Of a stretch of DNA of 32,654 bases, positions 30,952 through 32,654 are shown piece by piece. A model generated the notes under the pieces. That model had not been told where the DNA came from. It did no database searches and worked only from the letters and a program-made list of their open reading frames with translations. Position 1 is the first letter of the stretch. Each line of letters starts with the position of its first letter. The position numbers and the translations under genes are program-made. The stretch comes from Betaproteobacteria bacterium (GTDB taxonomy: Bacteria; Pseudomonadota; Gammaproteobacteria; Burkholderiales; Usitatibacteraceae): contig JAGRPO010000110.1 of assembly GCA_019449455.1 (NCBI GenBank), positions 1 to 32,654 on the forward strand. Reading direction: 5' to 3'.

Positions 30952-32334
30952 ATGGCCTCCCCCATCGCTCCCGAGATCTTCAAGGCCTACGACATCCGCG
31001 GCATCGTGGACAGGACGCTCACCGAGGAGGCGGCCGAGCTCATCGGCCGGGGCCTGGGCACGATGGGCAAGGCCCTGGGCGTGAAGCGCTTCGTGGTGGG
31101 GCGCGACGGGCGGCTCTCCGGCCCGCGCCTCGTGGCGGCGCTCACGCGCGGGCTCAACGCCGCCGGCATGGACGTGACCGACCTCGGCGTCGTCGCGACC
31201 CCGATGGTCTACTTCGCGACCTTCGAGCTCGGCACCGGCAGCGGCGTCATGGTGACGGGCAGCCACAACCCGCCCGAATACAACGGCCTCAAGATGGTGG
31301 TGGCGGGCGACACGCTGGCCGCCGCGGCGATCCAGGACCTGCGCAAGCTGATCGAGTCGGGGAAGTTCGCCACCGGCAACGGCTCCGTGGAATCGAAGGA
31401 CATGGCCGAAGCCTACCTCGAGCGCATCGCCGGCGACGTGAAGCTCCACCGCCTCATGCGCGTGGCCATCGACTGCGGCAACGGCTCGCCCGGTGCCATC
31501 GCGCCCGCCCTCTTCCGCAGGCTGGGCTGCGAGGTGCAGGAGCTCTTCTGCGAGGTGGACGGCACCTTCCCCAACCACCATCCCGACCCCTCCAAGCCGG
31601 AGAACCTCGAGGACCTCATCCGCGCGCTGAAGGAAGGCCACGCCGAGCTGGGCCTCGCGTTCGACGGCGACGGCGACCGGCTGGGCGTGGTGACCAAGTC
31701 GGGCCGCATCATCTACCCCGACCGCCAGCTCATGCTCCTCGCGGCCGACGTGCTGCAGCGCAACCCCGGCGCGAAGGTGATCTTCGACGTGAAGTGCACG
31801 CGCCAGCTGTTCGGCTGGATCCGCGACCACGGCGGCGAGCCGGTGATGTGGAAGACCGGCCACTCGCTCATCAAGGCGAAGCTCAAGGAGACCGGCGCCC
31901 CGCTCGCGGGCGAGATGAGCGGCCACATCTTCTTCAAGGAGCGCTGGTACGGCTTCGACGACGGGCTCTACGCCGGCGCGCGCCTGCTCGAGATCCTCTC
32001 GCGCGCCCCGAGCGTCACGCAGGCCCTCGAGGAACTCCCCGATTCCGTCACCACGCCCGAGCTCAACCTCGCCCTCGCCCGCGAAGGCGAGAACCACGCG
32101 CTCATCGCGCGGCTGCAGAAGACCGCGCGCTTCGAAGGCGCCATCGAGATCATCACCATCGACGGCCTGCGCGTCGAGTATCCGGACGGCTTCGGCCTCA
32201 TGCGCGCCTCCAACACGACGCCCGTGATCGTGCTTCGCTTCGAGGCCGACACGACCGAGGCGCTGGCCCGCATCCAGGCCGACTTCCGCCGCGTCCTCGC
32301 CGAGGTCCTGCCGGGGGCCAAGCTGCCCTTTTAG
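30952..32334 (+). CDS. Phosphomannomutase/phosphoglucomutase
   Basis: A 460-residue alpha-D-phosphohexomutase of the AlgC/ManB type. It interconverts 1- and 6-phosphates of mannose or glucose and supplies sugar nucleotides for LPS and exopolysaccharide. The catalytic phosphoserine is S104 in TGSHNPPEYNG, the metal loop is DGDGDR at 238-243, the sugar-binding loop is GEMSGH (320-325), and the phosphate-binding loop is RASNTTP (418-424). All four domains are complete. The ATG at 30952 is preferred because GAG lies seven bases upstream. An in-frame ATG at 30940 overlaps the yheT stop but lacks ribosome-binding spacing. Confidence 0.94.
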   Translation: MASPIAPEIFKAYDIRGIVDRTLTEEAAELIGRGLGTMGKALGVKRFVVGRDGRLSGPRLVAALTRGLNAAGMDVTDLGVVATPMVYFATFELGTGSGVMVTGSHNPPEYNGLKMVVAGDTLAAAAIQDLRKLIESGKFATGNGSVESKDMAEAYLERIAGDVKLHRLMRVAIDCGNGSPGAIAPALFRRLGCEVQELFCEVDGTFPNHHPDPSKPENLEDLIRALKEGHAELGLAFDGDGDRLGVVTKSGRIIYPDRQLMLLAADVLQRNPGAKVIFDVKCTRQLFGWIRDHGGEPVMWKTGHSLIKAKLKETGAPLAGEMSGHIFFKERWYGFDDGLYAGARLLEILSRAPSVTQALEELPDSVTTPELNLALAREGENHALIARLQKTARFEGAIEIITIDGLRVEYPDGFGLMRASNTTPVIVLRFEADTTEALARIQADFRRVLAEVLPGAKLPF

Positions 32335-32654
32335 CGCGAGCGGGCGGCAGCGAAACACGCTTCCACGGGAGTGGCCACGGTGCCGCGTGCCATCCTTGAC
32401 ATCGACCGAGAAGGCACCGCTGCATCGATCGCGAAGACGTGTAGCGGAGAAGGGATGTCGGACCTGACTTCGGCGCCATGCCGAATCGGTACGGCGGTGA
32501 ACGGAGAGGCAGTGGGTCCAGGTGGGTTGTGTTTCTTTTTGGTTTTTGGCCAAGTGAGCTTGCCGGGAGCGCCGAAGTGCGGATCGAGTCGACATAGGCT
32601 GGGGCGACGCTGTCGGAACCCCCGGTGTTGGCCAAAAACCAAAAAGAAACACAA
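32335..32654. other. Non-coding tail with no convincing gene
   Basis: After the phosphomutase stop, 320 bp run to the window edge without a gene I can support. Several frames are open, as usual in GC-rich DNA. One plus frame is open from about 32359 to the end, but the product has low-complexity Arg/Lys-rich sequence and matches no family I know. The stretch is less GC-rich than the genes and holds the inverted repeat at 32527-32654. It may be part of a dispersed repeat. Confidence 0.6.
32527..32654. repeat. Perfect 27-bp AT-rich inverted repeat, right arm at window edge
   Basis: Bases 32527-32553 (core TTTCTTTTTGGTTTTTGGCC) are the exact reverse complement of 32628-32654, with 74 bp between them. 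Inward extension stops at once (G at 32554 against G at 32627). Outward extension cannot be judged because the window ends, so the arms may be longer. The T-rich arms contrast sharply with the surrounding GC-rich DNA. Possible roles are a REP/MITE-type element or a bidirectional transcription stop. Confidence 0.9.

Follow-up and report, generated by a model that had tools for sequence, protein, structure and literature searches.

A dispersed family of intergenic hairpins whose arms vary between copies yet remain complementary

The DNA analyzed here ends inside a long hairpin belonging to a dispersed family, and the two arms of these hairpins change together, such that the stem sequence varies and the hairpin is retained. 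The reading that we favor, with moderate confidence, is that the family consists of MITE-like palindromic insertions, non-autonomous and confined to one genus, in which template switching during DNA synthesis keeps the two arms matched. Gene names used throughout (phosphomutase, alcohol dehydrogenase, and others) are by-eye readings.

The window, by which we mean the whole stretch of DNA analyzed, is the entire contig C256 (32654 bases) of a 3.48-Mb genome assembled in 341 contigs. The earlier note had described an AT-rich perfect inverted repeat at its end, and this repeat is real: the arms, 27 nt each at 32527–32553 and 32628–32654, are 100% complementary with 74 nt between them, and have a GC content of 0.33, compared to 0.72 for the window. 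No perfect inverted repeat in the window is longer, and those in 40 dinucleotide shuffles reach 12 to 16 bp (spacer ≤400); folding of the strand with DNA energies gives a z score of −7.3 relative to 200 shuffles. The right arm is indeed clipped, although by the assembly and not by the windowing, since the window ends where the contig ends. The final 141 bases (32514–32654) are identical to the final 141 bases of contig C92, with no third full-length match in the genome assembly, and thus the clipping reflects an assembly break at a repeat. Sharing of exactly 141 bases is the trace expected if an assembler using a 141-base word had stopped at the repeat's first word, in which case the shared part of the repeat would begin at 32514. 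A longer true repeat, as had been suggested, is also indicated by the unclipped relatives, and because their arms are 38 to 46 bp, the true left arm is probably 32514–32553 (40 nt), of which 32527–32553 is paired and 32514–32526 is predicted to pair past the contig end. The loop (32554–32627, plus strand) includes a conserved core, TCGACATAGG (32589–32598, plus strand), which 24 of 36 copies match exactly. Upstream is the phosphomutase gene (30952–32334, plus strand; identified from its translation, with 80 relatives in named genome records), a host gene lying outside the element, followed by a presumptive left outer flank (32335–32513, from BLAST of the flank). A part of this flank (~32442–32510) resembles the left flank of the hairpin on G000:C311 (74% identity over 69 nt), in agreement with the proposal that the DNA before the repeat belongs to the same element.

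A search of the genome for further copies finds them on C92 and G000:C311. To survey the family more broadly, we used a covariance model built from nine aligned copies (16 stem pairs); the first relatives had come through BLAST and a sequence pattern, not a pairing model. In 28 genomes of the taxonomic family, the model identifies at least 38 distinct places (best-strand E ≤1.3e-11) in seven of the eight genomes of the window's genus, in a search that scored 123 first-look candidates per genome and that may have missed copies. The genus genomes have at least 3 (G000), 9 (G001), 8 (G002), 2 (G003), 3 (G004), 2 (G006), and 11 (G007) places, and there is no copy among the candidates scored by the model in G005. 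The 20 genomes of other genera in the same taxonomic family yield one weak match (E = 0.026), and among 399 genomes drawn from the order, at least three have matches at E ≤1e-4, all of them in the window's genus; no match at this level lies outside the genus under strict filters with eight candidates scored per genome. The 80 phosphomutase loci in named genome records have hairpin matches at one locus alone (L123, in Burkholderiales MAG ACE_PRO65). Together with the filled and empty sites described below, this distribution bears out the idea of a dispersed non-autonomous element, and it is at odds with the contrary case raised in the earlier note, a repeat present once in the genome whose arms end at precisely 27 bp. 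The exact 27-mer has no match in a genome-contig collection, and a 23-mer and a degenerate loop pattern have none in viral contigs, collections that may omit records near the window; the hairpin region of G007:C300 has no plasmid match and the window tail has no phage match, in collections that may omit close records. No description of the hairpin family was recognized in a literature search conducted largely without subscription papers.

In a model-free census of inverted repeats (score ≥25) in parts of three genomes, 400 kb of G002 contained one repeat, a nested palindrome of another kind; 291 kb of G005 contained none; and 97 kb of G000, including 16 kb that reads N, contained two, both unlike the hairpin family. 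We also observed several other palindromic structures: a nested palindrome with a 36-bp outer arm around three smaller hairpins, by eye (L259 15323–15529, on G002:C15); a second long-hairpin type in G001, with the sequence GGGACGGTTCTACAGAACC... and a loop of ~31 nt in L285 (L285 1809–1951, on G001:C120; and L309, on G001:C164); and short, REP-like palindromes of the GGGGACGGTTC type in three genus genomes (L251 6700–6749, L299 2183–2256, and L322 ~2035–2075).

The hairpin also follows the same phosphomutase gene in related genomes. On G001:C68 this gene is followed by two long hairpins and then an alcohol dehydrogenase gene, on G002:C13 by one long hairpin and then alcohol dehydrogenase, and in G006 the two genes are adjacent without a hairpin of the C256-end family. 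Alcohol dehydrogenase adjoins the hairpin on C92, and because the two genes are adjacent in relatives' contigs, C256 and C92 are very probably neighbors. Both contigs enter the hairpin in the same orientation, like the inverted pair of G001, and in all likelihood they flank two identical hairpins from opposite sides.

The anatomy of the hairpin was determined from 36 copies, with the ends of some placed by hand; the C92 copy, which is identical to that in the window, was left out, as was the copy on G001:C173, which has a broken right arm. (The next open frame at the latter locus, LTVEGKAELWRRW..., is transposase-like by eye; L089 2985–4142.) Arms are 38 to 46 bp in 34 of the 36 copies, the two clipped copies having 27 and 34 bp, and loops are 74 to 77 nt. 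The inner arm end is GGCCGA, GGCCAG, or GGCCAA in 34/36 copies, and the 35 longer arms are rich in G over their outer 20 bases (59%) and in T over the following 20 toward the loop (53%). An unpaired base lies at positions −17 to −20 from the inner arm end in 15/36 copies, and 15 of 21 gap columns fall within this interval (binomial p ~2e-11, a value that assumes random, independent placement, and related copies are not independent). Hairpins occur in pairs at six sites, which represent four loci and come from G001, G002, and G007, with starts 279 to 464 bp apart and with opposite loop directions at five of the six; two further hairpins on G002:C13 are 1.9 kb apart. The loop of one copy can be read as an AYVD...GKF-like string, but this reading frame was rejected on inspection by eye, since it is not maintained in copies whose loops are 75 or 76 nt. 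A scan for intrinsic terminators, which covers loops of 3 to 8 nt, shorter than the 74-nt loop here, gives no T-run sites in 32000–32654. The hairpins of integron attC sites have the base boxes RYYYAAC and GTTRRRY, and this pair is present in the outer 14 nt of none of the 36 copies; an attC identity was accordingly rejected.

Comparison of sister species shows both filled and empty sites, and by this comparison the hairpin copies were inserted into intergenic DNA. At five loci, DNA of ~360 to 460 bp is absent from some sister species: G006 has ~369 bp more than G002 at a parE-parC locus; G002 has ~412 bp more than G000 at a crp-like locus; G007, G004, and G000 have ~382 bp more than G002 at a glpD-HAD locus; and there are ~362 bp (G007:C147) and ~456 bp (G004:C368 and G003:C42) more than in G000 at the other two. 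The empty sites contain from none to ~55 bases of their own, and no target-site duplication was recognized by eye in alignments of these diverged sites. The parE-parC insert also contains, by eye, two tandem ~40-bp repeats located between its hairpin and the parC gene (L072 2601–2705, on G006:C175). When inserts are self-aligned (L069, L076, and L080), much of each is one imperfect palindrome. Of 20 copies, two (L069 and L070) have an outer repeat that outscores every match in the flanks at other loci, orthologs included, and the parE-parC and glpD-HAD copies have none by this cross-locus test. At two of the four loci analyzed for this, the outer repeat continues into the left-hand gene, at its coding end; inclusion of host coding DNA is supported for L069 (0/500 shuffles) and L086/L089 (2/2000), and not for L070 (299/2000) or L080 (1816/2000). 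The family thus resembles MITEs in being small, non-autonomous, dispersed, and intergenic, with filled and empty sites; it departs from them in lacking the conserved terminal inverted repeats that a MITE has in common with a parent IS, the arms differing between copies.

The variation in the arms is paired. Arm identity has a median of 67% between copies (630 pairs), whereas inside single copies it averages 96% (n = 36), and in the inner 16 pairs of the 36 copies, 99.3% of 576 cells are paired, a value inflated because copies were found mostly or partly by a model that rewards pairing. Among these 576 cells, 136 are changed on both sides, two are G-U, and four are unpaired; the covariation score is 0.638 versus 0.192 in shuffles, and shifting the partner by one column reduces pairing to 51 to 58%. 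Mismatches counted in the loop frame include eight G-U and eight A-C, and so neither strand is favored. In nine orthologous comparisons, three of which are among three genomes at one locus, 372 sites could be compared, with both arms changed at 51 and a single arm at 11; the transition:transversion counts (31:20 for both-arm and 10:1 for one-arm changes) are not significantly different (Fisher p = 0.08). An unpaired base is on the same arm in both members in four of the nine comparisons (at −17 to −20 in three, and near −36 in the fourth). At the glpD-HAD locus, G001 shares the outer 17 to 19 bp and the flanks with G007, and the inner stem and loop differ and again form a perfect hairpin. As a separate observation, the second hairpin type of G001 sits at this locus, inside what in G007 is the outer arm of a first-family hairpin.

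The loop, too, can differ in direction between orthologs, being the same in 8 of 13 comparisons, clearly reversed in 2, weakly reversed in 1, and undecided in 2. One clear reversal is between G007:C150 and G001:C173 (score 66 reversed, 22 same), where the left flanks are 95% identical over 104 nt; the other is between the second hairpin of G002:C13 (at 56.5 kb) and G007:C211 (32.5 reversed, −0.5 same). The weak case is G007:C300 versus G000:C311 (12 reversed, −1 same; best shuffle 8). Between G003:C42 and G004:C368, the hairpin flanks are swapped and the loop direction is unchanged.

Because of the paired changes, the near absence of G-U intermediates, and the reversed loops, we infer that template switching maintains the arms. 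An element of ~360 to 460 bp, as measured at five loci, and centered on a hairpin of ~155 to 165 nt, entered intergenic DNA, as the filled and empty sites show, and its arms would then drift together at each site. DNA synthesis would switch template between the arms and copy one onto the other, and under such arm-to-arm rewriting the hairpin would keep its shape even as the stem sequence changes, with the loop ending in either orientation. Template switching is reported to homogenize arms and invert spacers (PMC8604942 and PMC8794818), although the spacer inversions described there span a few bases, much less than the 75 nt here. Selection on hairpin shape may also act, as the bulge hints, since unrestricted copying between the arms would be expected to remove a bulge at a fixed position. 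A more elaborate proposal, tentative and on balance improbable, is that the loop and the shape, not the stem, define the element, that arm copying sometimes takes in host DNA, and that the folded hairpin, with its bulge at a fixed position, is recognized by a putative protein or nuclease irrespective of the stem sequence.

Covariation on two strands is often read as evidence of a selected RNA stem, and an RNA-level role is one alternative here. The hairpin could be a transcribed 3′-untranslated or intercistronic stem that ends, processes, or stabilizes transcripts, whether as the bidirectional barrier proposed in the earlier note or as an RNase III-type site, with selection keeping the stem. 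The gene contexts are consistent with this (6 convergent, 11 tandem, and no divergent among 17 hand-classified loci, as raw counts with no null), as is the bulge at a fixed position, and NEMIS and ERIC RNAs are reported to affect adjoining transcripts (PMC2229807). Nonetheless, we consider it unlikely. It is a common view that an RNA stem acquires compensatory changes by way of G-U (PMC8794818), and the near-zero G-U count therefore argues against stepwise compensation in RNA; neither strand is favored, and copies are missing in sister species at five sites. Moreover, none of 10 loci matches an Rfam family at gathering score, and the five sub-threshold hits are to four miRNA models and one lncRNA exon.

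The hairpin might instead be a single-strand substrate of a shape-reading enzyme, as in REP/RAYT or IS200-like systems, in which a putative Y1 transposase would read the bulged stem and the shape rather than the sequence would be conserved. The fixed bulge in a stem of variable sequence, the paired hairpins with predominantly opposite loops, and the compensatory changes also reported for REPIN hairpins (PMC3116915) agree with this. However, the stem and the loop both far exceed the length of REPs, given as 20 to 40 bp (PMC3733652), and no REP head motif was identified, which makes this reading distinctly doubtful. That the contig stops exactly at an arm and has 141 bases in common with another could also reflect a chimeric inverted join, but 34 of the 36 measured copies are unclipped, 35 of the at least 38 places are in six other genomes and have different arms, and in G001 and G002, too, this phosphomutase gene is followed by family hairpins. 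These observations refute an assembly artefact for the family as a whole and make one very improbable at this contig end. We continue to favor a MITE-like insertion whose arms are rewritten by template switching. The strong covariation here, with almost no G-U and with reversed loops, is as expected if one arm templates the other, and the hairpin family warns against taking such covariation as RNA function. With dozens of natural replicates, several of them at the same sites in sister species, the rate at which long palindromes are homogenized and inverted in bacteria could be measured.

Several known systems share features with this family. YPAL/RU-2 of Yersinia (~168 bp) is likewise intergenic, palindromic, and not A+T-rich, with filled and empty sites and a length similar to that of the hairpin (PMC2229807). 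Compared by description, it differs in that the arms here vary between copies yet stay complementary, and in that target duplications are reported for YPAL (PMC2229807), whereas none was recognized by eye at hairpin family sites. REPINs also have an inverted arrangement and a hairpin conserved by length and pairing, with compensatory changes, but they have invariant 16-mer ends and a variable middle (PMC3116915), in contrast to the variable ends and conserved loop of the hairpin family. Correia/NEMIS elements of Neisseria are similarly small inverted-repeat insertions by genes, and inversion has been reported (PMC10969869); their terminal repeats are of a defined kind (PMC2229807), whereas the arms here differ at each site. 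The template-switching hairpins described in PMC8794818 and PMC8604942 are RNA-gene stems or short gene repeats, whereas the members of the hairpin family are dispersed insertions whose arms are ~40 bp and whose loop is ~75 nt; nonetheless, they show the same combination of changes in both arms and inversions of the loop.
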